The position numbers and the translations under genes are program-made. Below, one piece after another: positions 11,867 through 33,214 of a DNA stretch of 33,214 bases. Under the pieces are notes generated by a model, which searched no databases, was not told where the DNA came from, and saw only the letters and a list, made by a program, of their open reading frames with translations. Source of the stretch: Chitinophagaceae bacterium. Its GTDB lineage: Bacteria > Bacteroidota > Bacteroidia > Chitinophagales > Chitinophagaceae. The DNA is taken from the NCBI GenBank assembly GCA_947447825.1, contig CANFLL010000047.1, positions 1-33,214 of the forward strand. The letters are read 5' to 3'. The stretch's first letter is position 1. Each line of letters opens with the position of its first letter.

Positions 11867-12097
11867 GTCAGAGAGGGTTTTTCTGCTGCCAGATGCGCAT
11901 ATTGCAATGTCAGTTGCAATAAAGCTATTGTAAGATGCAATAATGTTATTGTCAGACACGATAATGTTAGTGTCAGATGCAATAATGTTACTGTCAGATA
12001 CAATAATGTCGTTGTTAGATACAATAAACCTTTTGTCAGATTCAATAATATCCAAGTAGAACGCAATAATCCCCAAGTAGTATGTTCTTATAAATAA
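11867..12097. repeat. 21-bp tandem array 1
   Basis: Ten units begin at 11867, 11888, 11909, 11930, 11951, 11972, 11993, 12014, 12035 and 12056, with a degenerate eleventh at 12077. Every interval is exactly 21 bp. The unit starts GTCAGATGCA and continues ATAATGTTATT; the middle five units are best conserved and both ends decay. Across the join of units 2 and 3 lies the dyad CAATAA-TG-TTATTG (11938-11951), partly kept in unit 1 and weaker elsewhere. Because 21 is a multiple of three, the minus strand reads as a heptapeptide repeat (SDxNIIA), but there is no start or flanking domain to support a protein. Confidence 0.9.
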
Positions 12098-12230
12098 ATC
12101 AAGGTGGGCAATGGATCGAAGATGCCAGCAAAAGGAGATTAAGCAGGAACTTGTGAATAGAATTATATGATCCAATTATTTTCATACCGAAAACATTTTG
12201 GCAATACTAGTGAATATATAATTGGCATCA

Positions 12231-12244
12231 TAACAACGTTGTTA
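12231..12244. promoter_or_regulatory. Perfect 14-bp palindrome, possible operator
   Basis: TAACAACGTTGTTA is fully self-complementary. It lies about 400 nt upstream of the adhesin start, between two divergent genes. Regulatory use is a guess. Confidence 0.25.
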
Positions 12245-12640
12245 ACAATACTGCTGATAAGCTGTTTTTTGCCTAAATTATTGAGTCAACATAAATTAAA
12301 AAATTATCACTTCAATGAAGAGTTTCTTTACACCTCAATACTTTCGTCTTCCTTGTAGCCTTTACGAAAATGAATCAATTTATCTGAATCCATACTAAAA
12401 TCTAAAAATTATAAGCTAACTGAAATTCTAAATTCAATAGGTCAGGACGGTGCAGGATAGATAGGGGTTAAAGCAATTATATGTTTGCCAGTAAAATACG
12501 TTCATCTATTGTTGATATTATTTGTCCATAAATGAGCGTGTTTAATAATGATTGCACAATGAAAAGAAAATTACATCTCCCTCGATGCTAGGGAACATTT
12601 TGCTGCCACTATTTTAATAAACGATTACAACAACAACTAT

Positions 12641-15600
12641 ATGAAAAAGAGGTTCCTTTACTCAACTGGAGTTATTCCTTGCTTTATTGTTAAACATGTA
12701 TCATCAAAAAGAATATCAATTCCGAAGATGTTTCCAATGTTGGTGATTAAAAGTGTTTTTTTTTTAATAACATTTATTTTTTATTCAAATAACCTTATTT
12801 CGCAGAGTCTTTACCAAATATACACAACTCCATTCCAAGCATCAGCTACTGCGCCAAGTTGGGGAGGAACAGCAACAGGTACAGTTTCAAGTGCAGCATT
12901 TTTTTCTGCCGCACTCTCAGGATGGTCTGGAACTTACACGAATACCTATTTTTCAACCTCTAGTTCTACTGGGTCAGGAACAATAACTTTTTCTTCCGCT
13001 TTGCCTCTTGTTTCTAATGGAACTGATAAAGGAACTGTTGTAGTAAACTTTGGACATACCTCCGCAGGAAAAGGTTTTACTTTGTATCTTAATGGATCTC
13101 CATTAACCTCCTACACTGCAACTGCTCTTAAAACTGGATATGTAGTAACTTATACAATTCCAATAGCCCAAGCAAATATTACTTCTTTACAATGTAAAGG
13201 TTCAAGTACTTCTGGATTATATTGTTTTTCAGTTTCAGTTAATACCTACACAACGTGTACAACACCTACTTTGAGTGGAGCATCTCAGTCTAGTACAGTT
13301 TGTAGTGGTACAAGTGCAACTATTAATATGACTGGCTTAGTAGCCAGCAGCAATGCTAATGCAATAGACTACACAATTAATGGAGTGGCTCAAACGCAGA
13401 TAACTGGAGTTGCATCAGATGCAAGTGGAAACGCTAGTTTCACATCAGTTTCACTAAGTTCTTCAAACAATGGTCAAACATTACAAATTACAAAAATTAC
13501 AAATGGCTCTTGTAATACTAGTTTTACAAAAAATGTGACACTCTCCGTAAATACACCAATCTCTATAGGCACTAACCCCTCTGCAACCTCAGTCTGTGCG
13601 GGTTCTAGTACCACTATGGGCGTATCATCTGTTTCGGGTACATCACCAACGTATCAATGGCAATATGCTACCTCTGCCGGTGGAACTTATGCTAACGTGA
13701 CGAATGGCACACCCATAGGCACGTCTTACACTAATACAACAACTGCAACTTTGGGTATTGCAACATCAGGAAGTACACCTGCTGGTAGTAATTATTTTTA
13801 TCAATGTGTCGTTGCTGGCACTTCCCCTTGTGGTAATGTAACCTCTGGCAATGCAGCACTAACAGTGAATGCTCCAATCGCAATTGGCATCAACCCCTCA
13901 GCAACAATAGTTTGTGCAGGCTCTAGTACCTCAATGTCTGTATCTTCCGTTACGGGTACATCTCCCACTTATCAATGGCAATATGCAACATCAGCTGGTG
14001 GAACTTATGCAAACGTTGTTAATGGCACACCAAGTGGTGTAACTTATTCTAATGCAACAACGGCAACTTTGGGAATATCAACGGCTAACAGCACCCCTTC
14101 TGGAAGTAGTTATTTTTATCAATGTGTAGTATCTGGCACTTCTCCATGCGGAAGTGTCACTTCTGGTAATGCTGCACTAACAGTGAATGCCCCAATCGTT
14201 ATAGGCTCAAATCCTACAGCTTCATCTGTAAATATTAATGGAGCTTCAACAACATTTTCAGTTTCTTCGGTTACAGGCACATCTCCCACATATCAATGGA
14301 AGCATGCAACTACTGCTGGAGGGGTTTATACAAATGTTGTTAATGGAACACCCACAGGAGTAACCTATAGTGGTGCGAATACTGCTACATTATCGTTATC
14401 AGCTTCTGGCACTGCATCTACAGGCACAAATGATTACTATCAGTGTGATGTTGCTGGAAGTTCTCCTTGTGGATCAGTATCTTCAGGCAATGCGGCTCTT
14501 ACCATTAATGCGGCATCAGGACAAACCCCTCCTTCTTTGTCCGCAACTGCTAATCAATCTGTAGATAATGATTACATAATAACCTATTCAGATGATATAG
14601 CTTGGGATGCAGCAGTTACTGGGATTACTATAGATGGAGGAAGCGTTCTTTCGGGAACTACCTATTTTTCAACTCCTAGTGCTGGTATTATTACTTTGCA
14701 TACTTCAACCATTCCAGCTTTGCAAATACCTGGAAGCCACACAATTGTAATAATAGCTTCAACTTACTTAAATGCAACGCTTAATTCAGCCTCCAATGTT
14801 TCAGGTGTTCCTGTCCGATTATCTATCAGTAGCATAGTAAGCACTCAAGTAGCTGGTACTTCATTTGGAGTAACGTTAAACTCATTAGATCAGTTTGGTA
14901 ATCCTGCTAATGTTTCAAGTAATACAAATGTTACTTTAGCTACTTCGGGAAGTGGTGTTTTGTCAAGCAACTCTGGAATTATTAATACAGGAAATAGTAG
15001 TGTTACTCTAGCTGGTGTTAACTATACTAAAGCAGAAGCAGTCACATTTACAGCATCTGCAAGTGGTTTAACAACATCTTCCGCAAGTAATACTGTTACT
15101 TTTAGTGCAGCAACTGCAATGCAATTGTCTATTGCAACAATCGCAAGCGCTCAAACTGTGGGTACTCCATTCAGTGTCATCATTACAGCCCAAGACATTT
15201 ATGGAAATACGGCAAACAGTTCAGCAGCGGTAACATTTGCTTCCTCAGGTAGCGGAATCTTGTCTGGAAATTCAGGATCATTAAGTAGTGGTGTATTAAC
15301 ATTAACTAGTGTTAGTTACACCAAAGCAGAAACTGTCACCTTCTCTGCATCCGCAAGTGGATTAACTTCTGCTGTAAGCAATTCAGTAACTTTCAGCACA
15401 GGTACTCCAACTAAACTTGCAATTTCATCAATCTCAAGTTCTCAAAATGCTGGGACAATTTTCAGCGTAACAGTTTCTGCGCAAGATGCTTATGGCAACA
15501 TTGCCAATAGTTCTGCAAATGTAACTTTAGCTTCATCTGGAAGTGGAATATTATCAGGAAATACTGGTACTCTTAGTAGTGGCACACTTACACTAACTAA

Positions 15601-18600
15601 CGTCAATTATACAAAGGCAGAAGTAGTCACGTTTACAGCATCCGCTAGTGGATTAACAAATTCTGATGCAAGTAATTCTGTAACTTTCAATGCAGGGTTA
15701 GCTTCGCAAGTTGTCATTACAACAGTGCCTACCGCACCAGCAACTAATGGGGGGAATTTAGTTACTCAACCCATTGTTAAAATTGAAGATGCAAACGGAA
15801 ATGTTGTAACAGGAAGTACGGCTAATGTAACGGTAAGTATCCTAGGAACTAATGCTCTAATTAATGGAACAACTACTGTAAGTGCTAGTGCTGGCATAGC
15901 CACATTTAGTGGAGTTTCTATTGCAACATCTAATGGAACAACCCAATCAGCTACTTTAACTTTTTCTTCTTTGGGGCTAACATCTGCAACATCTGGAAGT
16001 ATAACAATACCTGCTTATGCCACATCTGCTGCTAGTTTCTTTAGGTCAAATGGAACAGGTGGTGGCACATGGACTACTGCAAATACGTGGCAAAGTAGTC
16101 CAGATAACATTAATTGGTTTACAGCTACTACAGCGCCAACTTCTACTGCATTGGCTATAGATGTTAGAAGTGGAGACGTTGTCGGAATTGCATCTGCCGT
16201 AACTATAGGAATTGTTACCACTAATATTGTTTCTGCTACTGTAGAAGGTGAATTGGACATTAATACTGCTGGTACCTTAACAATAGCAAATGGTTCTTCA
16301 TTAACTGTAACGGGTACTTTGAACAATACACTTACAACTACCTCCATCACTACCACAGGTACTCTAGCTTTTGGCTCAAATGGTATTTTTCAGCTTTCTG
16401 GAAACGGTGGAACCATTCCTGCTGCAACATGGGCATCCACTTCTACCATCAAAATAACAGGTATAACTACAGGTGCTAATGCCCTAACAGTTACTGCTCC
16501 TACAAGTGGAAACTATGGAAGCTTATGGGTAGATATTCCTGGCTACACAGCGGCTACGACGTTTAAGTTTTTCAAAAATTTCCCATCAACTGTTACGCTT
16601 GCTGGTGACCTTACTTTAGGAAGAACAGGTGGGCGTATTTTGCAGTTGCCAACAGGTACTAATGGAAATACTGTTAACGTGTTAGGTAATGTAAATGTAT
16701 ATGCGGGTGATTGGATAATAAACAATTTTACAACTGTGGCTTGGACAATCAATGGTAACTTAAACATAGATGCAACTTATTCATTTGGCACTTCCACAGG
16801 GTATAGTAATCCAACTTTTGAAGTAAACACTTCTGGTTCTACATCAACAACTGTAAACCTAAAAGGAAACCTAAACATGACTACCGGTGTCAATGCAGGA
16901 ACTGGAGTAACTCAATCAGCAGTTTTGTTTTCTTCTGGTTCTAATACACAAAGCTTTAATTTTAATGGTAGTAACAACCAATCTATTAATGTTGTAGGAG
17001 TAGGAACTTTTACAGGCGCAACAAATATCACTGTAGCTAATACTGGAACTGCTCCCAATAATATTGTTACTTTAAATGGCAACTTTACAGTGGGTGGCAC
17101 TCTTACCCTTACTTCTGGAACATTTGCAGTAGGCTCAAACACATTAAGCCTAAACGGTCCTTCGATTGTTAACCCTGCTAATTTAGTCTTAACTTCTTCT
17201 TCAAGTTTATCATTTGGAGGAAGTTCAGTAAGTGTAATTATCCCGTCAAATGTTACTTCATTAACCAACCTGACCATTGCAAATAATACTGGTGTTACAT
17301 CTAGCAGTAATATTACTGTTAGCGGAACAATGTCTGTAACAGGAGTATTTATTCCAGCTCCTGGTAATATTATTGGTGGTGGCACTTTAAGTGGAACTGG
17401 AACTGTTAAAGTCACAAAGGCAACTGGCTCTGGAGACTTTTTAGGCCAATATACACTCAATACTTTAACCTTGTCTGCACTTACAGTTGAGTTTGCAGGT
17501 GCGTCGGCTCAGGGTGTAAATGCAAATACTTTTGGTAGTTTGAAAATTAATAATTCTAATGGCGTTACTGCCGCTGGAGCAATTACTGTTAATGGTACAT
17601 TGACTTTAAGTTCTGGATTGTTAACCACCACCACTTCAAACTTACTTACCTTGGGTAGTGGTGCAACAGTAAGTGGAGGCTCTTCTACTTCTTTTGTGAA
17701 TGGACCAATGCAAAACACTATTTCTGTTGCTACATCTACGCCTAAAGTTTTCCCTATTGGCAAATTGATCAGTTCGACTAATTATTATAGCCCAATTACT
17801 TTAACAGTAACACAACTAGCTGCTTCTGCCACAACTTACCAAGCAGAAGCATTTTTTGGAGGTTCAATGCCTAGCTACACTTTGCCTACTACATTATCAG
17901 TCGTTTCAGCTAATAGATATTACACCTTAAGCTCAAGTGCCAATAATATTTCCACAGCGGCTATAACTTTAAACTATGATGCAAATGATGCCACAGGTAG
18001 TGGTCTTTCGTTGGTTACTGCTGCCAATATTCGTATTGCAGGAAGTAGTGGTTGGATTGATTTAGGTGGAAATGGTTCTGCTACAGCTTCTGGTTCAATC
18101 ACTTCAACAAATAGCTTTACTTCACTTGGTGATTTCGTTATTGCAAATGCCCTTGTTTTAGGTACTCCACCTTCTTTAACTGCTGCTGCAAGTCCAAATA
18201 ATACACTTGACGGTAACATTAATATTCAATTTACAGATGATGGAACTTGGGGTAGTAAAATAAATACTGTGAAACTGGGTACAACTTCATTGGTACTCGG
18301 AACAGATTATAGTCTTTCTATAGTTGCCAATCCAGGTACAAGTACTTTGAGCTTAATACCCGGAAGTGCAATAACAACTCCTTTTACCACACAAACAATC
18401 ACAGTTTCTGCTACTAGTTACAATGACGCTACAGTAAGCCAGACAATCACTGTTGGTGTACCAGCAAAACTGATTGTTAAAACACAGCCTGTTTCTTCTA
18501 CTTTTTATGCAGGAGCTTTTACCACGCAACCAGCTGTCTACATACAAGATCAGTATGGTAATGCCACTACTAGCACTGCAAGCGTTACAGTTGCTCCATC

Positions 18601-21600
18601 TGTTGGTTGGACAATTGGAGGTACTACAACCGTAGCTGCAATTAATGGTACTGCAACTTTTACTGGTCTTGCTGCAACCGCATCTTCAGATGTTACTGGT
18701 GCTGCACTTTCATTTACATCTGGTTTATTTACTGGCACCACTTCAAATACATTTACAGTCGTTGGCCCTGCTGTTTATTATTGGGTTGGAGGAACAGCTT
18801 CTAGTAATTGGATTACTAGTGCAGTTTGGAGTAAAACCAGAGGGGGAACTGGTGCCATAGTCTCTAATCCACTTGCAACTGACACCTATATTTTTGATGG
18901 TACAAATATTGGTGCTGGGGCTACAGGTAGTGTTAATGTAACATTAGGAGCATCTATTAATGTAGGTCAGATACTGCTTCAAAATAGTCAAAAGGTAACG
19001 TTTACGCCTTCTACAACTGTTACTGTAAGCGTAAATGGAATGCCAAATGGAGCAGACTTTGTGGTCGGTACAGGCAGCAAATTTATTACTGCTGGTAGTG
19101 CTTCAACATTTGCTTTGGCTACAGGAGCAACTGGAAGTATTTCAGATTCTGTAACATTTGCCACTGGTTCTAATACCCCGATTACTGCGGCTGATAGTGC
19201 TGCATTAGTTTTTAACAGTGGTTCTGTGGTAACATTCAACTTGGGAAGTAGTTCTACTTACCCATTTGGACAAGGAAAAGATAGTTCAGTCATCTTTAAA
19301 AGTGGTTCTAAGCTTTTAAATAGTAAGGCTGGGGATCCTTTTGGAGGAACAGGTCATAGTGTAGTTATTTTCCAAACGGGAAGCTCTTATGAATTGGCTC
19401 ATTCTAATTCTGCTGCCTTAATATTTTCAGGTCGCACATTCTCTAACTTCATTTTTAGTTCTACATCTACAGCTTCTCCAGCTGCAGGTTCAGCAGGAAT
19501 AACTTTCGATAGTATTTTAGTTAGTGGCACAAAAAGCTTTACAATTGCTGAAACAGGTTCTTTGAATCATATAAGGGGGCATATTAAAATTGGATCTGCT
19601 GGTGGTTCTCTAATATTTGCCCCTGCTTCTGCATCTACTTTCACTTTAGATGGATTAATCAATCAAGTAATCGCAGATACTGGCACATTAACCATTGGGT
19701 CTAATCAAACTATTCAAGTCAATAACTCAAATGGTGTGACTATCGGATTGCCAGTAACTAGTTCTGGGTCTTTATCACTTTCTACTGGCAATGTTACTTT
19801 AGGCAATAATAACCTAACAGTTGCTTCTGTGTCTGGCGGAAGTTCATCTTCTTATATTGATGCTAGTGGCACAGGCAAATTCAGTATTGCTTCCGTTCCT
19901 ACTTCTGCTACCATTTTCCCCATTGGAACAGCTACTTATTACGCACCACTTAGCTTTTCTGGAGGCACTGCCAACAGAAAGGTTACTACTGGCGTTAAAG
20001 AAGCACTAACAAATGCACCTAGCATTCCTACCAATGTGGTAAACCTTGAATGGTCTATTTTGGCCAGTGCAGCTACATCTCCAACCGTAACATTCCAATA
20101 TAATGCAGCTAACAAAGCAAGTGCTTTCTCGGCTTCCACGCCTGTTTTAGGAACTTATGTTAGTTCCTATTCTGAATCTATCATGGGAGCTATTAGTGGC
20201 TCTGATCCATATTCTGTTTCTACCAGCACAACAATTGCCTTGCCAATCATTTCTGCTAGTTTATATGCTATTGGTAATCAGTATTCGTTTAATTGTGTTG
20301 CTGGAACTTATGTTGGGGCTAACAATGGTGATGCTAGTGTGTCATCAAACTGGTGTGGTGGAGTTCCTTCGGCTGCTAGTAACGTAATTATTTCTTCGAA
20401 TGCGCCACTACTTACCACCAATCTTTCAGTAAATAATCTAACGCTCAATGGAGGATTAAACCTAAATGGTAATTCTCTAACCATTAATGGTTCAATTTCC
20501 GGAACGGGTACTATTACTGGTTCTTCAACCTCTTCTGTAAACGTTTTAGGTTCTGGAGGTACTTTATATTTTAACCAAGGAACACCTAGCACAACAAACC
20601 TGCTTAATAATTTAACTATCAATACGGCAGGCACCGTTACATTGGGGAATGCATTAAACGTATTGGGAACCGTTACGCCAACTGCTGGCACACTTGCTTC
20701 TGCTGGCAACCTAACATTAATTTCCAATGCTAGTGGAACTGCAAGAGTCGATCAGGTTTTAGGAAGCATCACTGGTAATGTTTCTATTCAGCGTTACATC
20801 TCTTCAAAGTCTGCTCGTAGGTATAGTTTCATCGGTAGTCCTGTTGCTCAAAGTGTTCGTAGTGCTTGGCAAAACCAAATTTATATTACAGGATCTGGCA
20901 CTGGTGGTGCAATTTGTGGTTCAACAAGTGGTGATGGTGGCACAACAGATAAATATAATAGCAATGGATTCGATGTTTCGCAGGTAAATGCCGCAACGGT
21001 AATGAACTATACTGCATCAACAACTAATGGTAGTCATTATGTAGGAATTTCAAATACTGAAAGTACCAGTCTAACCCCTGGTGTTGGGTATGTGGTAAAC
21101 ATTCGTGGTAATAGAAATAGTCAAACTGTTTCTTGTTCTAATCAACTTGCTAATACTTCACCAACTGCCCCAGAGGAAGTTACCCTCAGTGCAACCGGAA
21201 CACTTACACAAGGCGATGTGTCGGTAACATTGAATGATCCTTTTGTACATAAATTTACTTTGCTAGCTAATCCATATCCTAGTCAGATAAGTTTTTCTGC
21301 TTTTCAATCCGCTAATAGTGGTACAATAAGTAATAAAATGTGGACTTACAGCCCTTTTGGTTCTGGCAATTACACCACCTACTCTAATGGTGCAATAGTT
21401 AATGCCGCCACTAACTATGACAATATTAATGGAAACTATCTTGCAGTGGGTCAGGCATTTTTTGTGGAAGGAATCACTGCTGGTAGTGTTGCTTTCCATG
21501 AAAATCAAAAGGTAAGTGGACTCATACCTAACACACAATATTTTGGAACAAACAATATTAAAACAATCAGGGTGGCATTTAATAATGCGGCAGGTTCTCG

Positions 21601-22522
21601 TTTAGATGAAATTATTGTTAGATACAATAATAGAGGTTCTAAAGACTATGTCTCCGCCTGGGATGCTAATTCATTAAGTATTGTGGGGCAAAGTTTGGTT
21701 TCTCTTAAAGGAACAAATCGTTTAGCTATTGCCACTCATCCAGATGATGCAACTGTTGACACAACCCAGCTTGCAGTGGTAAATAAGGCTGGAAGCTATT
21801 CTTTATCCTTCAATCAATTAGAAACTATCGACTCTGCTCAATCAATTATCTTGATAGATAAATTTTTAGGAACACAAACAAATGTTCGTAAAAACTCAGT
21901 CTATCCTTTTAATATCACTTCCGATACTGCTAGTAGGGGCATTAACAGGTTTAAGATTGTGTTGAGTGCTGCAGCGCCGCTTGCTGTGAGCTTTACAAAC
22001 ATTGAAGCTTCAAAAACGGGCAAGGATGTTTCTGTGAAATGGCAGTTGGCTGATGAGAAAAATATTGTCACTTACACAGTAGAAAGAAGCACGGATGCAA
22101 TCAATTTTGAAGCTTTTTCTACTGCTAAAGCAATAAGTGTTTTTGCGTATACTACAATAGATGCTTCAGTTCCAAATGGTGTTTCTACTGTTTATTACCG
22201 TGTGAAAGCTGTTGACAATATGGGCAAGGCCAATTATTCAAAAATAGTCTCCGTAAAGGTTTCAACCAGTAACGCACAAGTGTTGGTTTATCCTAATCCA
22301 GTTCAAAACAAGTTGAATGTTTCGCTTAATAATGCGTCTGCTGGTGTTTATGGACTAAGGGTTTCTACTACTTCTGGGGTTCTGGTATTTAGTAAAAACA
22401 ATGTTTCTTTAAGTGCAAGCAATGCAAGTTTCAACGTAAGCAATTTGGCTTCTGGTGCATACATCCTTGAAGCGACAGACAAAAGTGGAAGTAAATTAAT
22501 TAGCAAGTTTATTAAGCAATAA
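12641..22522 (+). CDS. Giant multidomain adhesin with T9SS type A sorting domain
   Basis: A 3293-residue protein. The first ATG gives a long N-region; Met30 (12728) directly precedes the hydrophobic core of the signal peptide, which ends near S-Q at residues 54-55, and may be the true start. Domains: three Ig-like repeats of exactly 106 residues (each 318 nt, starting ~13556, 13874 and 14192; ~304-622) with PTYQWQYATSAGGTY and paired Cys; three to four bacterial Ig/invasin-like repeats (~723-1130) with NYTKAE-x-VTFTASASGL; then long Thr/Ser/Gly-rich segments likely to be beta-helical, with W-T-x-x-x-x-W starts near residues 1139, 2045 and 2553; a FN3-like domain (~3118-3208); and a C-terminal tail (~3214-3293) with VYPNPVQNKL and GAYILEATD, the signature of T9SS cargo. 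It should be exported by the Por system and held on the cell surface or released. It has its own promoter region and a terminator at 22546-22579. Confidence 0.95.
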   Translation: MKKRFLYSTGVIPCFIVKHVSSKRISIPKMFPMLVIKSVFFLITFIFYSNNLISQSLYQIYTTPFQASATAPSWGGTATGTVSSAAFFSAALSGWSGTYTNTYFSTSSSTGSGTITFSSALPLVSNGTDKGTVVVNFGHTSAGKGFTLYLNGSPLTSYTATALKTGYVVTYTIPIAQANITSLQCKGSSTSGLYCFSVSVNTYTTCTTPTLSGASQSSTVCSGTSATINMTGLVASSNANAIDYTINGVAQTQITGVASDASGNASFTSVSLSSSNNGQTLQITKITNGSCNTSFTKNVTLSVNTPISIGTNPSATSVCAGSSTTMGVSSVSGTSPTYQWQYATSAGGTYANVTNGTPIGTSYTNTTTATLGIATSGSTPAGSNYFYQCVVAGTSPCGNVTSGNAALTVNAPIAIGINPSATIVCAGSSTSMSVSSVTGTSPTYQWQYATSAGGTYANVVNGTPSGVTYSNATTATLGISTANSTPSGSSYFYQCVVSGTSPCGSVTSGNAALTVNAPIVIGSNPTASSVNINGASTTFSVSSVTGTSPTYQWKHATTAGGVYTNVVNGTPTGVTYSGANTATLSLSASGTASTGTNDYYQCDVAGSSPCGSVSSGNAALTINAASGQTPPSLSATANQSVDNDYIITYSDDIAWDAAVTGITIDGGSVLSGTTYFSTPSAGIITLHTSTIPALQIPGSHTIVIIASTYLNATLNSASNVSGVPVRLSISSIVSTQVAGTSFGVTLNSLDQFGNPANVSSNTNVTLATSGSGVLSSNSGIINTGNSSVTLAGVNYTKAEAVTFTASASGLTTSSASNTVTFSAATAMQLSIATIASAQTVGTPFSVIITAQDIYGNTANSSAAVTFASSGSGILSGNSGSLSSGVLTLTSVSYTKAETVTFSASASGLTSAVSNSVTFSTGTPTKLAISSISSSQNAGTIFSVTVSAQDAYGNIANSSANVTLASSGSGILSGNTGTLSSGTLTLTNVNYTKAEVVTFTASASGLTNSDASNSVTFNAGLASQVVITTVPTAPATNGGNLVTQPIVKIEDANGNVVTGSTANVTVSILGTNALINGTTTVSASAGIATFSGVSIATSNGTTQSATLTFSSLGLTSATSGSITIPAYATSAASFFRSNGTGGGTWTTANTWQSSPDNINWFTATTAPTSTALAIDVRSGDVVGIASAVTIGIVTTNIVSATVEGELDINTAGTLTIANGSSLTVTGTLNNTLTTTSITTTGTLAFGSNGIFQLSGNGGTIPAATWASTSTIKITGITTGANALTVTAPTSGNYGSLWVDIPGYTAATTFKFFKNFPSTVTLAGDLTLGRTGGRILQLPTGTNGNTVNVLGNVNVYAGDWIINNFTTVAWTINGNLNIDATYSFGTSTGYSNPTFEVNTSGSTSTTVNLKGNLNMTTGVNAGTGVTQSAVLFSSGSNTQSFNFNGSNNQSINVVGVGTFTGATNITVANTGTAPNNIVTLNGNFTVGGTLTLTSGTFAVGSNTLSLNGPSIVNPANLVLTSSSSLSFGGSSVSVIIPSNVTSLTNLTIANNTGVTSSSNITVSGTMSVTGVFIPAPGNIIGGGTLSGTGTVKVTKATGSGDFLGQYTLNTLTLSALTVEFAGASAQGVNANTFGSLKINNSNGVTAAGAITVNGTLTLSSGLLTTTTSNLLTLGSGATVSGGSSTSFVNGPMQNTISVATSTPKVFPIGKLISSTNYYSPITLTVTQLAASATTYQAEAFFGGSMPSYTLPTTLSVVSANRYYTLSSSANNISTAAITLNYDANDATGSGLSLVTAANIRIAGSSGWIDLGGNGSATASGSITSTNSFTSLGDFVIANALVLGTPPSLTAAASPNNTLDGNINIQFTDDGTWGSKINTVKLGTTSLVLGTDYSLSIVANPGTSTLSLIPGSAITTPFTTQTITVSATSYNDATVSQTITVGVPAKLIVKTQPVSSTFYAGAFTTQPAVYIQDQYGNATTSTASVTVAPSVGWTIGGTTTVAAINGTATFTGLAATASSDVTGAALSFTSGLFTGTTSNTFTVVGPAVYYWVGGTASSNWITSAVWSKTRGGTGAIVSNPLATDTYIFDGTNIGAGATGSVNVTLGASINVGQILLQNSQKVTFTPSTTVTVSVNGMPNGADFVVGTGSKFITAGSASTFALATGATGSISDSVTFATGSNTPITAADSAALVFNSGSVVTFNLGSSSTYPFGQGKDSSVIFKSGSKLLNSKAGDPFGGTGHSVVIFQTGSSYELAHSNSAALIFSGRTFSNFIFSSTSTASPAAGSAGITFDSILVSGTKSFTIAETGSLNHIRGHIKIGSAGGSLIFAPASASTFTLDGLINQVIADTGTLTIGSNQTIQVNNSNGVTIGLPVTSSGSLSLSTGNVTLGNNNLTVASVSGGSSSSYIDASGTGKFSIASVPTSATIFPIGTATYYAPLSFSGGTANRKVTTGVKEALTNAPSIPTNVVNLEWSILASAATSPTVTFQYNAANKASAFSASTPVLGTYVSSYSESIMGAISGSDPYSVSTSTTIALPIISASLYAIGNQYSFNCVAGTYVGANNGDASVSSNWCGGVPSAASNVIISSNAPLLTTNLSVNNLTLNGGLNLNGNSLTINGSISGTGTITGSSTSSVNVLGSGGTLYFNQGTPSTTNLLNNLTINTAGTVTLGNALNVLGTVTPTAGTLASAGNLTLISNASGTARVDQVLGSITGNVSIQRYISSKSARRYSFIGSPVAQSVRSAWQNQIYITGSGTGGAICGSTSGDGGTTDKYNSNGFDVSQVNAATVMNYTASTTNGSHYVGISNTESTSLTPGVGYVVNIRGNRNSQTVSCSNQLANTSPTAPEEVTLSATGTLTQGDVSVTLNDPFVHKFTLLANPYPSQISFSAFQSANSGTISNKMWTYSPFGSGNYTTYSNGAIVNAATNYDNINGNYLAVGQAFFVEGITAGSVAFHENQKVSGLIPNTQYFGTNNIKTIRVAFNNAAGSRLDEIIVRYNNRGSKDYVSAWDANSLSIVGQSLVSLKGTNRLAIATHPDDATVDTTQLAVVNKAGSYSLSFNQLETIDSAQSIILIDKFLGTQTNVRKNSVYPFNITSDTASRGINRFKIVLSAAAPLAVSFTNIEASKTGKDVSVKWQLADEKNIVTYTVERSTDAINFEAFSTAKAISVFAYTTIDASVPNGVSTVYYRVKAVDNMGKANYSKIVSVKVSTSNAQVLVYPNPVQNKLNVSLNNASAGVYGLRVSTTSGVLVFSKNNVSLSASNASFNVSNLASGAYILEATDKSGSKLISKFIKQ
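13556..14512 (+). repeat. Three in-frame 318-bp repeats encoding Ig-like domains
   Basis: The codon for Pro in NTPI/NAPI recurs at 13556, 13874 and 14192, so the period is exactly 318 nt. Copies 1 and 2 both keep YQWQYATSAGGTYANV and the VCAGSST opening. Copy 3 has lost that opening Cys (it reads SSVNINGASTT) and has YQWKHATTAGGVY. Copy similarity at the DNA level points to recent duplication. Confidence 0.85.
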
Positions 22523-22757: not shown

Positions 22758-22944
22758 TTTTCCTGTACAGTAATGATCTATTACTGTACAGGAAAATCAT
22801 TTTACTCTACAGTAAAAACATTTTCCTGGTAAGTAATGCTCCAATACTGTACAGTAAAATCATTTTACTGTACAGTAAAACGTTTTTCCTCTAGAGTAAA
22901 ATCATTTTACTCACCAATTTATCAATTTTCCTTACCAGTAAAAT
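22758..22944. repeat. 21-bp palindromic tandem array 2
   Basis: Nine units are centred on an 8-bp core that starts at 22763, 22784, 22805, 22826, 22847, 22868, 22889, 22910 and 22931, always 21 bp apart. The best unit (22863-22880) is the 18-bp perfect palindrome TTTTACTGTACAGTAAAA. Cores read CTGTACAG in units 1, 2, 5 and 6, CTCTACAG in 3, CTGGTAAG in 4, CTCTAGAG in 7, CTCACCAA in 8 and CTTACCAG in 9. Unit 7 differs from the consensus at two positions that stay paired. Units 1 and 2 also form a large inverted repeat: 17-bp perfect arms (22758-22774 and 22780-22796) around GATCT. Confidence 0.93.
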
Positions 22945-23057: not shown

Positions 23058-23675
23058 CTAAACGTTTTTAAATTTATTATTGAACACCCTTGGTTTAAAG
23101 TATCCTTTTATGCAATTTGGATTTCTTATGCAAATTTGAATGTGATTTTTTTCTCTAAATCCAGCATTTGGGTAAATTTCCTCACCTTCCCAAAATACAC
23201 CTCTTATTGAATCGAATGGTATTAGGTTGTTTATTTCTATAATTCTGTGCATTGATTCAATAACAGCACAATCCAATTCTCTCAAAATAAAGTCTCCGCT
23301 ATGATTAAGAGGCTTGTTCTCAGGTAATTTTTTTCCGATTCCGTCCATGCTGGTTGAAAGTAAACTATACGAATCTTTCAAAAATACTAGGTTTTGATAG
23401 TCTAATAAGTCTAAGCAGTGACCCAAATTTATTACAGCACCAATAACAGAAGGATTTTTTATAGGTTCTTTTTTTATGTTTGGGGATTTGTGTAGTTCAT
23501 TCGCAAATTCTAATGCTCTTGAAGGACTATTTTCCCAGAAGTAGATACCATTCCCCAACCAGTCATATTTGTTTTTGCTTTGTTCTAATGTCTTTTTCCC
23601 TAACAATATTTCATCAACTAAGCTTTCGTCACATCCATGAAAAGCTAAAATTATGCTTGATCTTGTGGTGTACAT
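23058..23675 (-). CDS. Putative ADP-ribosyltransferase-like toxin of a two-gene module
   Basis: A 205-residue soluble protein from ATG at 23675, with no signal or membrane segment. Near the N-terminus it has AFHGCDES (H13) and, 30 residues later, DWLGNGIYFWEN (Y45). Those resemble the His and Tyr of the H-Y-E fold of PARP/diphtheria-type ADP-ribosyltransferases. A candidate third residue is E175 in GFREKNHIQICIRNP, in a strongly conserved-looking C-terminal part. GAVINLGHCLDLLD and LRELDCAVI are further recognisable blocks. From memory this combination recurs in many phyla behind a small partner gene; I cannot confirm a named family. The start lies inside the upstream gene (25-nt overlap), so translation is coupled. 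Activity as a toxin is inference from fold signature and context. Confidence 0.65.
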   Translation of the reverse strand: MYTTRSSIILAFHGCDESLVDEILLGKKTLEQSKNKYDWLGNGIYFWENSPSRALEFANELHKSPNIKKEPIKNPSVIGAVINLGHCLDLLDYQNLVFLKDSYSLLSTSMDGIGKKLPENKPLNHSGDFILRELDCAVIESMHRIIEINNLIPFDSIRGVFWEGEEIYPNAGFREKNHIQICIRNPNCIKGYFKPRVFNNKFKNV

Positions 23676-28149: not shown

Positions 28150-28518
28150 ACAGTTAGTTTTATAATGAAATATTTCCTCAATATTAGTATTTATTTTCAA
28201 ACAATTCAAAATGTCGAAATAATATTTAAAGTAGAAACTCCATGAACTAGTTATGATTGTTTAATTTTTTTTCTTAGTACTATTAGCTTCTTTAGTTTTC
28301 TCGTGCTTCTGGATATAGTTACATGGTTCATTTCTTAGTTTAGTTTTAATACAGAAAATAGCATACTTATAAAACGCTTATAAACAAACTCGTTGTATAA
28401 CTAAGATTCTTGTTTTTATTTTTTAGGAATTAACAATGCAAAATCTGACTTTTATTACTATTTTAGCCGCCGATTTGCTAAAAAGCACTTTTTTTTACTA
28501 ACATCAAACTAAAAAGCG
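28150..28518. other. Divergent intergenic region before the fucose operon
   Basis: AT-rich spacer between the SRPBCC gene and the transporter gene. It should hold promoters for both directions. A candidate -7 box is listed separately; no regulator gene or operator was recognised. Confidence 0.5.
28459..28466 (+). promoter_or_regulatory. Possible -7 promoter element of the fucose operon
   Basis: TATTTTAG differs in one position from TAnnTTTG and is followed by CCGCC. It lies 53 nt before the transporter start. The -33 TTTG partner is not evident, so this is a weak call. Confidence 0.28.
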
Positions 28519-29808
28519 ATGGCCTTGCCTCAAAATGGTTCTCAATTGTCGAGTAATGATTCTAACGAAATGGGTAATTATTTGTTCCCCTTTATTTTAA
28601 TTACTTCTTTGTTTTTTTTGTGGGGATTTGCCCATAACCTTGATCCAATTTTAATTCCTCATTTAAAAAAGTCATTTACGCTTACCACTGTTCAATCAAC
28701 TTTGGTGGATACTGCGGTGTTCTTTGCTTATTTTGTTATGGCTATTCCTGCTGGGTTCATTATGAAAAAGTATGGATATAAAACTGGTATTATTATCGGA
28801 CTGCTCATTTTTGCGATTGGTTCTTTTCTATTCATCCCGGCAGCTAAAACCCAACAATACGATTTCTTTTTAATAGCCCTATTCATCATTGCTTGTGGGT
28901 TAACAATTCTTGAAACCGCCGCAAATCCTTATGCTTCATTGTTGGGCGACCCCAAAACATCTACACAGCGGCTAAACTTTGCTCAATCATTCAATGGACT
29001 TGCTTGTTCTTTGGCTCCTATTATCGGTGCAAGAATTATTTTAACCAAAGGCTACTCCGACCTCGAACTCAGTGCAATGACTACTACTGCTCGTGTGCAG
29101 GCTTTGGCTAAGGAAGCTGAAACAGTAATACCTCCATACTTTATTTTAGGAACAATTTTGGTCATAATAGCAGTAATATTTGCTTTTACTAAGCTTCCTA
29201 AAATTCAAACTAGTTCCACAAAGGCAACAAGTCAAAGCATTTTTCATGCTTTAAAACATTCTCATTTATCATGGGGAGTGGCTTCGCAATTTTTCTATGT
29301 TGGTGCACAAGTTTCTGTATTTAGCTTATTTATTCTTTACGCAAGTAAATCCGCTGATTTATCAGAGGTTAAAGCAGCAGACTTTTTAGGGGTTTGTGGA
29401 TTTGCTTTTTTGATAGGTCGTTTTATTGGAACATTTTTAATGAAATTTATAACACCAGAACGGTTACTAGCAATTTACGCTGCCATCAACATTGCACTTT
29501 GCCTTGTTGCAATAACAGCTCATGGAATGATTACAGTTTATACGGTTATTGCTATTTGCTTTTTTATGTCTATCATGTTTCCAACTATTTTTTCTTTAGG
29601 AATAAAAGATCTTGGTGGCGACACTGAATATGGAAGCAGTTTGATTATTATGTCGATTGTGGGTGGTGCTATTCTGCCAAGAGTTTTTGCTACCATAGGT
29701 GAGGCATCTGGTAATATTCAATTTGGATATGTAGTCCCATTGATTTCTTTTTTGGTAATTATGTTGTTTGGCTTGAGAGGTTACAAAGTTAAAAATGTAG
29801 AAAATTAA
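28519..29808 (+). CDS. fucP: L-fucose:proton symporter, FucP family
   Basis: A 429-residue major facilitator with twelve predicted membrane helices, close to the usual ~430-440 residues of FucP. The N-terminal helix reads SLFFLWGFAHNLDPILIPHL, with D42 at the place of the transport aspartate known in E. coli FucP. E132 in CGLTILETAANPYASLLGD matches the family's second key acidic residue. LNFAQSFNGLACSLAPIIG is the FucP/glucose-galactose transporter motif. It imports L-fucose with protons across the inner membrane. It is the first gene of the operon; the mutarotase starts 12 nt after it. A glucose/galactose relative is possible on motifs alone, but the downstream fucose enzymes favour L-fucose. 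Confidence 0.88.
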   Translation: MALPQNGSQLSSNDSNEMGNYLFPFILITSLFFLWGFAHNLDPILIPHLKKSFTLTTVQSTLVDTAVFFAYFVMAIPAGFIMKKYGYKTGIIIGLLIFAIGSFLFIPAAKTQQYDFFLIALFIIACGLTILETAANPYASLLGDPKTSTQRLNFAQSFNGLACSLAPIIGARIILTKGYSDLELSAMTTTARVQALAKEAETVIPPYFILGTILVIIAVIFAFTKLPKIQTSSTKATSQSIFHALKHSHLSWGVASQFFYVGAQVSVFSLFILYASKSADLSEVKAADFLGVCGFAFLIGRFIGTFLMKFITPERLLAIYAAINIALCLVAITAHGMITVYTVIAICFFMSIMFPTIFSLGIKDLGGDTEYGSSLIIMSIVGGAILPRVFATIGEASGNIQFGYVVPLISFLVIMLFGLRGYKVKNVEN

Positions 29809-29820
29809 ATTAGTGCAAAT

Positions 29821-30165
29821 ATGAAAAAGTATTGCTTGGCTTGCGATTTAGTGGATGATGAAGCATTGATAGCAGAGTATATTGACTGGCATAAATCTGA
29901 AAATGTTTGGCCAGAAATTAAACTAAGCATATTGGATGCTGGTATTACAAATATGGAAATATTTCGTATTGGTAATAGGTTATTCATGATTATGGAAGTA
30001 AATGAAACATTTTCTTTTGAAAGAAAAGCTGTAATGGATGCCTCTAATCCGAAAGTACAATCATGGGAAGAACTTATGTGGAAGTTTCAACAGTCATTAC
30101 CCTTTGCCACAAAAGGAGAGAAGTGGATGCTGTTAGATCAGATATTTTCATTGAATGAAAAATAA
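29821..30165 (+). CDS. RhaM-family sugar mutarotase, probably for L-fucose
   Basis: A 114-residue protein of normal family length. Y20 and H24 in the motif Y-I-D-W-H occupy the place of the catalytic Tyr and His of E. coli L-rhamnose mutarotase. ITNMEIFRIGNRLFMIMEV and the closing W-x-x-M/L segment are also typical. Mutarotases interconvert the alpha and beta pyranose forms so that the right anomer reaches the dehydrogenase. The family is usually annotated for L-rhamnose, but members in fucose operons act there on L-fucose (inference from context). It lies 12 nt after the transporter and 12 nt before the lactonase. Confidence 0.85.
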   Translation: MKKYCLACDLVDDEALIAEYIDWHKSENVWPEIKLSILDAGITNMEIFRIGNRLFMIMEVNETFSFERKAVMDASNPKVQSWEELMWKFQQSLPFATKGEKWMLLDQIFSLNEK

Positions 30166-30177
30166 AAAACAAGAACA

Positions 30178-31020
30178 ATGAGTATTGCAAACATTGGTTG
30201 TATTGATGCTCACCAACACTTCTGGCACTATGAGCCTGTGAAACATGATTGGATTGATGAGGAAATGACTGTTATCAGAAAAGATTTTTTGCCAGCAGAT
30301 TTAATCCCAATCATAAAAGGCAATGGTGTAAAAGGTACAGTTGCTGTTCAGGCCGACCAAACCGAGTATGAAACAAATTTTCTTTTAGGACTTGCAGATG
30401 AATATGACTTTATAAAAGGAATTGTTGGTTGGGTTGATTTGAGGAATGCTTTGGTTAAAGAAAGATTGGCGCACTATGCTCAATTTAAAAATATAAAAGG
30501 ATTTCGCCATGTACTTCAAGGAGAAGAGCCTGATTTTATGTTGCAACCTTCTTTTCTAAATGGAATTTCTGCTTTAAAGTCTTACAACTTTACTTACGAT
30601 ATTCTTATTTTTCCTAAACATCTAGAAGCTACTATACAGTTAGTAAAGCAATTTCCTAATCAGCCTTTTGTAATAGATCATATTGCAAAACCATTTATTA
30701 AAGCAGGATTGATGGATGAATGGGCAAAAGGAATGCTTGCTTTGTCTGGTTACGAAAATGTTTTTTGTAAAGTGAGCGGTATGGTCACAGAAGCTGATTA
30801 CAAACAATGGCAACCTAATCATTTTAAACCTTACTTGGATGTTGTAGTAGAAGCTTTTGGAATGAAGAGATTAATGTATGGTTCCGATTGGCCAGTATGT
30901 GAAGTAGCCGCTTCTTATGAGCAAGTAATTGGTATTGTAGAAGACTATTTTGCTTCTTTTTCGTTAGCAGAAAAGACCCAATTCTTTAACCAAAATGCTT
31001 CAACTTTTTATAATTTATAA
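30178..31020 (+). CDS. L-fucono-1,5-lactonase, amidohydrolase superfamily
   Basis: A 280-residue amidohydrolase of the COG3618 group. The metal-binding H-x-H is H12-H14 in DAHQHFWH. FRHVLQGEEPDF, FVIDHIAKP, VFCKVSGMVTEA and YGSDWPV follow in family order; the Asp in SDWP is the usual catalytic base. These enzymes hydrolyse sugar lactones such as L-fuconolactone to the open acid, the second step of oxidative fucose breakdown. Start ATG at 30178. It sits between the mutarotase and the reductase, which gives substrate support. Other members act on L-rhamnono- or 2-pyrone lactones, so the substrate is inferred. Confidence 0.86.
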   Translation: MSIANIGCIDAHQHFWHYEPVKHDWIDEEMTVIRKDFLPADLIPIIKGNGVKGTVAVQADQTEYETNFLLGLADEYDFIKGIVGWVDLRNALVKERLAHYAQFKNIKGFRHVLQGEEPDFMLQPSFLNGISALKSYNFTYDILIFPKHLEATIQLVKQFPNQPFVIDHIAKPFIKAGLMDEWAKGMLALSGYENVFCKVSGMVTEADYKQWQPNHFKPYLDVVVEAFGMKRLMYGSDWPVCEVAASYEQVIGIVEDYFASFSLAEKTQFFNQNASTFYNL

Positions 31021-31060
31021 CCTTAGATCTGATATTTAATACTTTTTAATCCCTCTACAG

Positions 31061-32065
31061 ATGAATAAATATAAACTGCAATTACCACCAGTAATTTTTG
31101 GTACAAGTGGGCTAGGTAACATATACCATGATACGCCTTACGAGTTAAAGTTGGAAATTGTGAAAGAATGTATCACTCATGCCAAAGGGGTTCCAATGTT
31201 TGATAGTGCTGGAAAGTATGGTGCTGGAATGTCTTTAGAGGTGTTGGGTAAATGCTTAAAGGAGCTTAACGTAAAGCCAGATGAAGTGCTAATCAGCAAT
31301 AAGTTGGCTTGGTACCAAGTACCACTTACCACACCAGAACCTACGTTTGAGAAGGGAGTTTGGGTAAACATAAATAACGATGCTGTTCAGAAGATTAGCT
31401 ATCAGGGTATTCTTGATTGTTTTGAACAGGGAAATGAATTGCTTGGAGACTATTCTTCGCAGATGGCTTCTGTGCATGACCCAGATGAATATTTGGCTAC
31501 TGCAACTACAAACGAGGAAGAAGAAAAATTATATGAAGATATTTTGGGTGCCTATACTGCTTTAACCGAATTGAAGGCACAAGGAAAAGTAAATTCAATT
31601 GGGGTTGGTTCTAAACAATGGCGCACTATAGAACGCATCTCTAAAGATATAGATTTAGATTGGGTGATGATTGCAAATAGCCTAACCATTCATAGCCATC
31701 CAAAAGAGTTGATAGATTTTATAGCCGAACTACATAAGAAAGAGGTTTCTGTTATTAATTCAGCCGTATTTAATGGTGGGTTCTTAATTGGGGGCGATCA
31801 TTATAATTATAAATTCGTTGATATAAACACCCAAGAGGGTAAAGAATTATATGATTGGAGAAATCGTTTTTTTGCGCTTTGTCAATCATACAATTTAAAG
31901 CCAGCAGAAGCCTGTTTCAATTTTGGATTTAATATTCCAGGTGTAAAAAGTGTTGCTTTAAGTACTTCACATCCAGACAAGGTTAAGGAAAACATAGATA
32001 TGGTTACGAAGGAAATATCTGCATCTTTCTGGGAAGCTATGAAAAACGAAGGGCTTATTGATTGA
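31061..32065 (+). CDS. Aldo/keto reductase, probable L-fucose dehydrogenase
   Basis: A 334-residue aldo/keto reductase with the full catalytic tetrad D48, Y53, K81 and H139. FGTSGLGNIYHDTP is the N-terminal motif of the aldose 1-dehydrogenase subgroup. GVGSKQWRTI, DWVMIANSLTIHSH and FNFGFNIPGVKSVALSTSHP follow in order; the last forms the cofactor pocket. The likely job is oxidation of L-fucose to L-fuconolactone, first step of the non-phosphorylating pathway. It lies 40 nt after the lactonase, the only gap over 12 nt in the operon. Related enzymes act on D-threo-aldoses, including D-arabinose and L-fucose, so exact substrate and NAD/NADP use are not known. Confidence 0.85.
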   Translation: MNKYKLQLPPVIFGTSGLGNIYHDTPYELKLEIVKECITHAKGVPMFDSAGKYGAGMSLEVLGKCLKELNVKPDEVLISNKLAWYQVPLTTPEPTFEKGVWVNINNDAVQKISYQGILDCFEQGNELLGDYSSQMASVHDPDEYLATATTNEEEEKLYEDILGAYTALTELKAQGKVNSIGVGSKQWRTIERISKDIDLDWVMIANSLTIHSHPKELIDFIAELHKKEVSVINSAVFNGGFLIGGDHYNYKFVDINTQEGKELYDWRNRFFALCQSYNLKPAEACFNFGFNIPGVKSVALSTSHPDKVKENIDMVTKEISASFWEAMKNEGLID

Positions 32066-32156
32066 TAGTTTCAATTATTTTGCTTCTTAAAGAGGAATAT
32101 GCTAAATAAATCTCTATTTTCATCTTGGGTTTAAAGGAAGTATTCCTAAATAATAG

Positions 32157-32957
32157 ATGAAAAAAGTATTACACTACAACTCTTCACAGATATGTTATTA
32201 CACTTATGGAAGTGGAAACAGAATTATATTTTGTTTCCATGGTTATGGACTATCTGGTGAAAGTTTTTCAGTTCTACAAACAGTTTTAGGGGCAGATTTT
32301 ACCCTAATTTGTATAGATTTACCTTTCCATGGGAACACCTTATGGCAAAATGAGCTATTGTTTTCTGATAATATTCTTTGGGCTATCATACAAAAAATAA
32401 ACCCTAACCCAAATGAACCTTTCTGCCTAATGGGATATAGTTTGGGAGGAAGAATAGCCCTTCAGCTACTGCAAAATCATCCAGATTTAATTCAGCAAGT
32501 TGCTTTAATTGCCCCCGATGGACTCAAGTTTAACTGGTGGCAGCACTTGGCAACAAATACCAAAATTGGTCACTCGCTTTTTCGCTTCACAATGCGCCAT
32601 CCACATTGGTTGATTACGCTAATTCGGCTTAGTAGTACGCTACATTTTATAAACAAATCGGTAGAAAAGTTTTCCTTAGCCTACATTGTTGAAGCTAATG
32701 AAAGGTGTTTACTCTATGAAAGGTGGTGTGTACTGAAATCATTTAAGCCAAATATGCGGGTGGTAAGAAAATTAATCAGCCAGCATCATATCCCCATAAA
32801 TCTATTGTTTGGCGAATATGATAAGATAATTACTACAAATCAAGGAGTTTCTTTTAAGAAAGATGAACCCCTTATTTCCGTCAAAGAAATAAAATGTGGG
32901 CATCAGCTATTAAAAGAAAAATATGCACTCGAAGTAGCAAAATTAATAGTGAAGTAA
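32157..32957 (+). CDS. Alpha/beta-hydrolase fold protein
   Basis: A 266-residue hydrolase with no signal peptide. The oxyanion motif is CFHGYG (H28-G29), the nucleophile elbow GYSLGG gives S95, and D222 in FGEYDKI and H249 in CGHQLL complete the triad. A cap region near residues 130-190 contains FRFTMRHPHWL and is hydrophobic. The substrate cannot be read from sequence. It begins 91 nt after the fucose dehydrogenase on the same strand, so it may or may not belong to that operon. No terminator was found between them. The start is the first ATG, with strong N-terminal agreement to the fold. Confidence 0.87.
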   Translation: MKKVLHYNSSQICYYTYGSGNRIIFCFHGYGLSGESFSVLQTVLGADFTLICIDLPFHGNTLWQNELLFSDNILWAIIQKINPNPNEPFCLMGYSLGGRIALQLLQNHPDLIQQVALIAPDGLKFNWWQHLATNTKIGHSLFRFTMRHPHWLITLIRLSSTLHFINKSVEKFSLAYIVEANERCLLYERWCVLKSFKPNMRVVRKLISQHHIPINLLFGEYDKIITTNQGVSFKKDEPLISVKEIKCGHQLLKEKYALEVAKLIVK

Positions 32958-33040
32958 ATGGGGATTTTGTGCCAATATGCTGTTTTAGAACCACTCATCA
33001 CTACTATTTGAGCACTTTCTTTTGCCCTCTTTCTTCCGTT

Positions 33041-33214
33041 TATTCAACTGAATCATACTTAATTTCACTTGAGTCAGTCCACGACTCACCTGAGTCATAC
33101 AAAGATTCACCTGAGTCAGGCGACGACTCAACTGAGTCATACAAAGATTCACCTGAGTTAGTCGGCGACTCACCTGAGTCAGACAAGGACTCAGTTGAGT
33201 CAGTCCACGACTCA
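33041..33214. repeat. 21-bp palindromic tandem array 3, cut by the window edge
   Basis: The TCA of the dyad recurs at 33044, 33065, 33086, 33107, 33128, 33149, 33170, 33191 and 33212, always 21 bp apart. The unit is a 14-bp dyad GACTCA-NN-TGAGTC plus a 7-nt linker. The two central bases vary (AC, CT, CC, GT). Linkers 3 and 5 are identical (ATACAAA), alternating with C/G-richer ones (AGTCCAC, AGGCGAC), which gives a partial 42-bp pattern. Unit 1 has ATTCA-AC-TGAAT, a paired change against the consensus that keeps the symmetry. The array begins about 85 nt after the hydrolase stop. Confidence 0.92.

Follow-up and report, generated by a model that had tools for sequence, protein, structure and literature searches.

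Intergenic arrays of 21-bp units with many unrelated sequences and an even chromosomal spacing in a Chitinophagaceae genome

Introduction

The window analysed here, 33,214 bp that make up the entire contig CANFLL010000047.1 (C47) of the genome of an uncultured Chitinophagaceae bacterium (4.65 Mb in 187 contigs), contains three intergenic tandem arrays that keep an exact 21-bp step. They represent an intergenic class whose members consist mostly of 7 to 10 tandem 21-bp units or 42-bp dimers, many of them built of two inverted half-sites with freer linkers. The class comprises dozens of sequence families, and arrays of different families lie evenly along the chromosome at distances near 10 kb. 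What might such arrays do? The reading proposed here, held tentatively and at rather less than an even chance, is that they are DNA arrays locked in helical phase, by which domains of about 10 kb are marked or insulated.

The 21-bp class

An earlier note on the window, made from its letters alone, had drawn attention to the exact step and to dyad-built units, and both are borne out. The self-match at lag 21 is 0.66 in array 1, 0.62 in array 2 and 0.69 in array 3, compared with only 0.14-0.33 at lags 20 and 22, and the units of all three remain in register when laid out in 21-bp steps; in arrays 2 and 3 the self-match at lag 42 is higher than at lag 21. The best self-match over 120 bp in 30 locally shuffled windows was 0.52, against 0.83 for the array at 33044 (lag 42) and 0.79 for that at 11908 (lag 21). 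As read from the sequence, dyads are clear in array 2 (TTTTACTGTACAGTAAAA) and array 3 (GACTCACCTGAGTC) and weaker in array 1, where one unit carries CAATAATGTTATTG.

Each of the three arrays is one copy of its own dispersed family, and the families are mutually unrelated. Family 1 is found in the genome at four full places plus one 44-bp partial match, family 2 at 10 places (overlapping matches merged by eye) and family 3 at about 40 (merged likewise; some at contig ends may be halves of one copy). The earlier statement that the arrays are not dispersed copies of one repeat stands in that the families are unrelated to each other, but not in that each array does belong to a dispersed family. 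Family 1 copies have common ends, at which no terminal inverted repeat was seen (both by eye), and family 2 places have the array in common but no flank. In a pair of paralogous regions (L029/L030), array 1 and its adjoining gene are both duplicated, with 74% identity across 1.4 kb.

How general is the 21-bp step? Periods were surveyed in 43 stretches of 20 kb (860 kb) of the source genome by an autocorrelation scan, with shuffled stretches as control and with Tandem Repeats Finder (TRF) run in parallel; the tests of the period peak and of dyads cover about a quarter of the genome, and the counts of spacing and families 1.22 Mb. Noncoding counts exclude arrays that lie more than half inside open reading frames (ORFs) of >=120 aa (15 such arrays, 6 with period 21). 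Among 82 noncoding arrays, 59 have periods within 2 bp of 21, 42, 63 or 84 (21 in 29, 42 in 20 and near-multiples of 21 in 10); the remainder have period 7 (19 arrays) or other periods (4). The shuffled control gave no arrays in 43 stretches. TRF agrees with the autocorrelation periods on the sampled stretches; periods of 10, 11, 31, 32, 52 and 53 bp are absent from the 82 arrays, and TRF lists one of 11 bp. Averaged over 36 families, the lag profile reaches 0.646 at 21, 0.774 at 42, 0.641 at 63 and 0.752 at 84, with a background of 0.22-0.29 at all other lags up to 85. Since lags 42 and 84 exceed lags 21 and 63, what is copied most often seems to be a 42-bp dimer.

The sequences that share this step are diverse. 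The 62 arrays from the sample and the window fall into 46 clusters at >=16/21 consensus positions, where sampled permuted controls reached at most 13. For the family counts, a short-period filter similar to that of the spacing test (below) followed by a phase filter left a clean set (95 to 85 to 66 arrays; in congeners 33 to 25 to 18), and the 66 clean arrays form 34 families at >=15/21 (Chao1 58). The sharp 21-bp peak and the single architecture with many unrelated sequences, both anticipated in the earlier note, are thus properties of the sampled genome and not of the window alone. Unit number is narrow: 55 of the 66 clean arrays have 7 to 10 units (median 9), the value of 7 being partly a floor because the segment used in the search is seven units long.

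Period-7 arrays are the second frequent noncoding class, distinct from the 21-bp class, and two of them lie in the window (Table 1). An origin of the 21-bp unit from three heptamers was considered and rejected, as the mean match over 36 families at lag 7 (0.24) and lag 14 (0.235) equals background and such an origin also misfits arrays of 41, 43, 65, 83 and 85 bp. Two congeners have long noncoding arrays of 9 and 14 bp (L161, G012 C1, 3351-4359; L158, G009 C1, 7896-11343), and species may thus favour different short periods.

Two familiar kinds of repeat were also rejected. For coding repeats, 61 of the 84 arrays contain an open frame (65.5 expected), and the codon-position contrast (0.092) is below the null (0.116); the ORFs over arrays 1 and 3 (Table 1) are open because a 21-bp period keeps the frame. 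Nor are the arrays clustered regularly interspaced short palindromic repeats (CRISPR): units abut at 21 bp with no unique spacers, and only the 7-nt linkers vary in family 3 relatives.

Spacing along the chromosome

The arrays lie at even distances. In the main test, arrays with a 7-, 9- or 14-bp self-match of >=0.42 were removed (95 to 87 arrays; 34 to 26 in congeners), and the null consisted of equal numbers of arrays put randomly into the intergenic gaps of the identical contigs in 2000 simulations. The 87 arrays form 50 neighbour pairs, of which 2 are under 4 kb, compared with 14.2+-2.7 expected (0/2000 simulations as low), and the coefficient of variation (CV) of the spacing is 0.50 against 0.95 expected. 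Pairs under 4 kb are also few prior to the removal (7/58 vs 19.3 expected), without family 3 (2/42 vs 11.5) and on contigs C1-C3 only (1/30 vs 7.6); on C1, 18 successive array distances range from 5.8 to 19.0 kb. Heptamer arrays are not evenly spaced (5/18 pairs under 4 kb vs 5.2), and array-free gaps of >=450 bp are not even at this level (16/57 vs 20.1; CV 0.86 vs 1.06, P=0.07). In congeners, 26 arrays in 18 pairs have a CV of 0.49 against 0.77 (P=0.0055). Only 2 of 38 clean neighbours are of one family, so that the exclusion cannot be put down to recombination between like arrays; arrays of different families, too, keep the even distance of nearly 10 kb.

Could the arrays be a mutational by-product, whereby a replication or repair process specific to the genus amplifies short palindromes in 21- or 42-bp steps, with no function attached? 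Such amplification would be consistent with a unit number that varies by whole units between copies, with 42-bp dimers that are more similar than neighbouring units, with unit variants that appear homogenised within an array (by eye) and with unit sequences that differ between species. It predicts, however, neither the even spacing nor the deficit below 4-5 kb, and no freer linkers beside constrained half-sites, and we consider it improbable.

Dyad symmetry in DNA or RNA

In a folding test with both strands averaged, arrays are more self-complementary than column-permuted control arrays, which retain period and composition (mean z -1.99, SE 0.24, 46 families); 25 of the 46 families stand at p<=0.05. 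A second test took 103 deduplicated arrays in 39 families, the 44 family 3-like arrays being counted as one family: columns with a complementary mirror number 12.2, where 10.9 are expected (p=9e-5), and in 31 of the 39 families they are less variable than the remaining columns (p=5e-4). The dyad enrichment over controls that the earlier note had proposed to look for is therefore present. In family 3-related arrays of the genomes G001, G006 and G010, the step and halves like TGAGTC/GACTCA are mostly retained, and the 7-nt linkers change between units; these arrays were picked by similarity to family 3, a choice that leaves linker variation within an array unaffected. A 10.5-bp distance between dyad centres is not counted as evidence, since any dyad repeated every 21 bp produces it.

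Does the symmetry act at the level of RNA? Serial hairpins in untranslated RNA were among the roles suggested in the earlier note; they would affect transcript stability or termination. In their favour, arrays fold better than column-permuted controls when strands are averaged, and some are strongly one-sided (L091 2760, -15.1 vs -49.5 kcal/mol), the mean strand difference being 1.2 x null. Raw counts also point this way, with compensatory changes at 7.6% of variable pairs on the axis against 4.3% and one-sided wobble at 290 vs 99 (244 expected for the larger side), but the raw strand-bias figure was set aside because inherited changes are counted many times. When each event is counted once, complementary double changes amount to 70/164 on the axis and 153/389 on eight displaced axes, and one-sided wobble to 196 on the axis vs 179.5 (SD 5.0), an excess that several displaced axes equal. 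Arrays are not enriched downstream of genes or between convergent genes: their flanking genes are co-directional in 35 cases, divergent in 18 and convergent in 8 of 61, with 1 more at an edge, against a background of 146, 61 and 34 in all gaps of >=200 bp, array-bearing gaps included. Array placement is indifferent to gene orientation. Rfam at gathering thresholds has no match in the window or in six array-bearing loci, and an RNA role gives no cause for a step phased to B-DNA or for even chromosomal spacing. As far as tested, then, the hairpin suggestion finds no gene-orientation bias, no axis-specific strand bias and little compensatory excess, and it seems quite improbable. We read the pattern as a constraint on DNA half-sites more than on paired stems.

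A mobile family and the selfish alternative

Family 3 is a miniature inverted repeat transposable element (MITE) with an internal minisatellite, arranged like BrickBuilt of Porphyromonas gingivalis. A conserved leader is followed by the array and then by a conserved tail, with no spacers between leader, units and tail and with a unit number that differs between copies. In 28/28 copies with both anchors (38 loci tried), the distance between leader and tail anchors equals 18+21k bp, with k from 0 to 7. The 17-bp terminal inverted repeats are TTAATTCTACTTTGACA / TGTCAAAGTAGAATTAA; both are present in 19 of 35 printed copies (<=4 mismatches), at a total length of 581-728 bp. The exact 13-bp end occurs 33 times compared with once for a reversed control, and a stricter end pattern occurs 8 times in the source genome and in 0 of 12 congeners. 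Several copies are flanked, as judged by eye, by pairs of TTAA, TTAG, TTAC or CTAA, which overlap the terminal repeat and suggest a 4-bp target duplication. In the window copy, the left terminal inverted repeat known from other copies was not found, and the right half of the element would fall beyond the contig; the length of array 3 is a lower bound because the contig end cuts it.

Are all the arrays, then, parts of selfish minisatellite-bearing insertion elements, in many mobile families, with insertion immunity or selection against crowding to keep them apart? The period would in that case reflect the machinery that makes or mobilises the elements. This is the chief rival explanation, a serious one that we nevertheless regard as rather unlikely. 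The ends of family 3 and its suggested target duplication argue for it, as does the fact that BrickBuilt and 464/PgRS of P. gingivalis are described, in the available part of the source, as MITEs with 23- and 41-nt arrays (PMC4596501). Arrays are moreover dispersed and missing from two syntenic places in other species (below), and their even spacing looks like target immunity. Against this stand the clusters other than family 3. Nine of them have several members; eight of the nine, family 2 included, align best in the array only, and the pair of copies in the ninth gave no alignment, in a comparison of multi-member clusters that shows the two longest alignments per pair. In the families compared, those of arrays 1 and 2 included, a set of leader, tail and terminal inverted repeats around the array was seen only for family 3. 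The Y1 transposase family is not expanded (5 Y1_Tnp matches, of which 4 pass the cut-off, where 22 relatives have 0-9), and no pair of exact family 3 ends lies at transposase-gene distance among the matches listed. Lastly, with so few neighbours of one family, sequence-specific immunity cannot be what acts between unrelated families.

Other species and turnover

In a first sample, arrays of period 21, 42 or 84 were present in 9 of 12 congeners; the sample was 15 kb for G005 and 3 kb (masked) for G008, and G012 showed other periods. The 18 clean arrays of congeners represent 18 families, and 1 of the 18 matches a family of the source genome. Two congeners (G003 and G004) have 21-bp arrays of different sequence downstream of the same operon. 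By these comparisons, unit sequence appears to turn over fast between congeneric species.

The possibility that the arrays are exclusive to the genus was rejected, as they were also detected elsewhere. Other genera (807 kb) gave 8 detections, of which 3 are judged real by eye: one in L231 with period 43, one of the two in L238 and a weak one in L129. L231 repeats CCTCAAACTTGAGG-like dyads, which have the 6-2-6 form of the window arrays. Density per noncoding kb in other genera is about a tenth of that in the source genome (at most 8 in 98.9 kb vs 87 in about 227 kb). The class is strongly enriched in the genus, not confined to it.

A possible role in chromosome structure

The DNA helix repeats at 10.5 bp per turn, and no whole-base period shorter than 21 bp stays exactly in phase with it. 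Half-sites placed at this step would thus face the same side of the helix, and units could cooperate on double-stranded DNA. Given the exact two-turn step and the dyad-built units, the phased DNA-level array put forward in the earlier note remains the leading idea. Most probably, the arrays would seed protein-DNA complexes that depend on phase, or serial cruciforms that are recognised by their shape, and these would anchor or insulate neighbouring topological domains of about 10 kb. A putative reader factor would recognise phased half-sites on double-stranded DNA, or the cruciform shape, which would fit both the symmetry and the freer linkers; if architecture is read more than sequence, the units are free to change in sequence from one species to another. 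That unrelated families have an even spacing of about 10 kb in common points to a single task along the chromosome, and it is from the spacing that we infer a role in topology. Supercoil domains of Escherichia coli and Salmonella average about 10 kb, according to the part of PMC6463007 that was available. A bolder form of the same idea, which we consider doubtful, is a sequence-independent architecture code: in this genus, a phased dyad array, whatever its sequence, would act about every 10 kb as a topological boundary or anchor, and only period, symmetry and spacing would be conserved, with unit sequences at liberty to change.

A number of results weigh against phase-locked arrays as domain markers. 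Some families have periods of 41, 43, 44, 65, 83 or 85 bp. The stronger dyad test fails in 21 of 46 families, and a simpler consensus dyad test is weak (5/46 families at p<0.05, combined p=0.038). Among k-mers of 4-6 bases in 52 families, none is clearly above the column-permuted maxima; with no k-mer clearly common to the families, one sequence-specific protein cannot read all arrays, and no binding protein for the arrays was found. In congeners, pairs under 4 kb are not significantly few (1/18 vs 3.0, P=0.16), and before removal of the 7-, 9- and 14-mers there is no significant regularity (6/24 vs 5.7; CV 0.74 vs 0.87, P=0.14). In cross-species comparison, flanking genes were available for 84 and 33 arrays, a match was obtained for 11 and 8 of these, and 2 places were syntenic; at both of these comparable intergenic places the other species has no array, the gaps being 39 and 40 bp, so that array positions are not fixed. 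Domain boundaries in E. coli are described as stochastic in the available part of PMC6463007, and a fixed-boundary role would hence be without precedent there. Finally, predicted curvature, from a wedge-angle model, is not higher than in column-permuted arrays (means 1.26 and 1.17, paired test p=0.82), and the 10.5-bp GC harmonic is not raised (0.091 vs 0.104 expected, 54 families).

The last two results bear equally on the idea that the arrays are strong sites for gyrase, or for another DNA-wrapping enzyme, read by helical phasing as are the BIME-2 elements (BIME, bacterial interspersed mosaic element) and the Mu strong gyrase site of E. coli. One strong gyrase site per domain of about 10 kb would suit the spacing, and a 21-bp period of any kind lifts predicted curvature (column-permuted 1.17 vs shuffled 1.07). 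According to PMC6379681, the motif read by gyrase is degenerate and symmetric, extends over about 130 bp and is phased at 10.75 bp, and the enzyme prefers some BIME-2 palindromes. At the 21-bp harmonics, GC is lower (p=0.013) and purines are higher (p=0.012) than the null. With no extra curvature and no 10.5-bp GC phasing, a simple gyrase site is unlikely, and we give this explanation very little chance.

Features and genes of the window

Array 1 lies in a divergent gap and array 2 in a convergent gap (Table 1). The gene between them encodes a 3293-aa repeat protein and has 21-bp arrays in both adjoining gaps; we take the end of this protein to resemble a type IX secretion sorting domain. In the run of genes before array 3, the order of the first four is kept in several congeners; only the alpha/beta hydrolase has a Pfam match, and the other names come from a reading of the sequence.

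Table 1. Positions of arrays, ORFs and other features in the window
Feature	Coordinates	Strand	Description
ORF	3-6620	-	open-ended, 2206 aa, 150-bp DNA repeats; RCC1-like by reading, presumably a large surface or secreted protein
Two-gene pair	7195-9608	+	histidine kinase (PF07568), then response regulator (PF00072); ORFs overlap by four bases
Heptamer arrays	10671-10736 and 10848-10891		AGGCAAG, ACTCACC; separate class
ORF	10888-11787	-	flanks array 1
ORF over array 1	11837-12175		
Array 1 (family 1)	11867-12097	.	11 steps of 21 bp, consensus TGTCAGATACAATAATGTTAT
TRF row, period 21	11908-12049		
ORF	12641-22522	+	3293-aa repeat protein; flanks arrays 1 and 2
Array 2 (family 2)	22758-22944	.	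9 units of 21 bp, unit like TTTTACTGTACAGTAAAATCA
TRF row, period 21	22758-22911		
ORF	23058-23675	-	flanks array 2
Gene run	28519-32957	+	permease, RhaM-like protein, amidohydrolase, aldo-keto reductase and alpha/beta hydrolase genes
ORF over array 3	32894-33214		
Inner part of conserved family 3 leader	33009-33043	+	sequence shared with other copies
Array 3 (family 3)	33041-33214	.	8 or more 21-bp units resembling TCACCTGAGTCAGTCCACGAC
TRF row, period 21	33065-33214		

Relation to known elements

Plasmid iteron and centromere arrays are direct repeats at about two helical turns that are bound cooperatively. There, one sequence is present per replicon, whereas dozens are present here on one chromosome.

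The closest likeness is with BrickBuilt, a MITE of P. gingivalis from the same phylum. As far as the available part of PMC4596501 describes it, BrickBuilt and family 3 are both intergenic, consist of leader, array and tail with small terminal inverted repeats, and vary in unit number between copies. BrickBuilt has a 23-nt step and is one family at 19 places in a genome (PMC4596501, same part), in contrast to the 21-bp steps, dozens of families and even spacing found here, where a leader, tail and terminal repeats of this kind were seen only for family 3. Similarly, 464/PgRS and the 22-, 23- and 41-nt repeats of P. gingivalis W83 are several unrelated intergenic repeats near two or four helical turns; these are few families with no common period, and the available part of PMC4596501 makes no mention of even spacing.

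Repetitive extragenic palindromes (REPs) and BIMEs are likewise numerous intergenic palindromic units, sometimes arrayed, for which a topological role via gyrase is proposed, whereas REPs form two sequence super-families with tags, and GTAG REPs are associated with REP-associated tyrosine transposases (RAYTs), all as given in the accessible parts of PMC3733652, PMC6463007 and PMC6379681. The present arrays have no sequence in common and no expanded Y1 transposase. A REP or BIME identity was rejected for want of a conserved palindrome (k-mer test, 52 families, with no separate test for GTAG/CGTC tags), and a RAYT-type expansion on the Y1_Tnp numbers above, a count of genes in which REP tags beside them were not looked at. 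Borg tandem repeats also comprise many independently formed arrays with fast turnover; in the available part of PMC9879509 their units are perfect, of several lengths, A-rich and about half inside genes, unlike the imperfect noncoding units described here, which are fixed near 21 bp and have dyads.

Concluding remarks

The elements are a variant of the intergenic minisatellites known in Bacteroidota; the way they are organised would be a novelty, provided that closed genomes bear it out. A search of the open-access literature (subscription papers and preprints lay outside its scope) brought up neither a class fixed at 21 bp nor evenly spaced arrays of this kind. What would follow if period, symmetry and spacing were selected, and not sequence? 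The arrays would constitute a class of structural chromosome elements that is invisible to homology searches, and they would be candidates, of a kind that can be counted, for what bounds supercoil domains of about 10 kb. Even if the elements were selfish, the mutual exclusion of unrelated sequences would need a new explanation.

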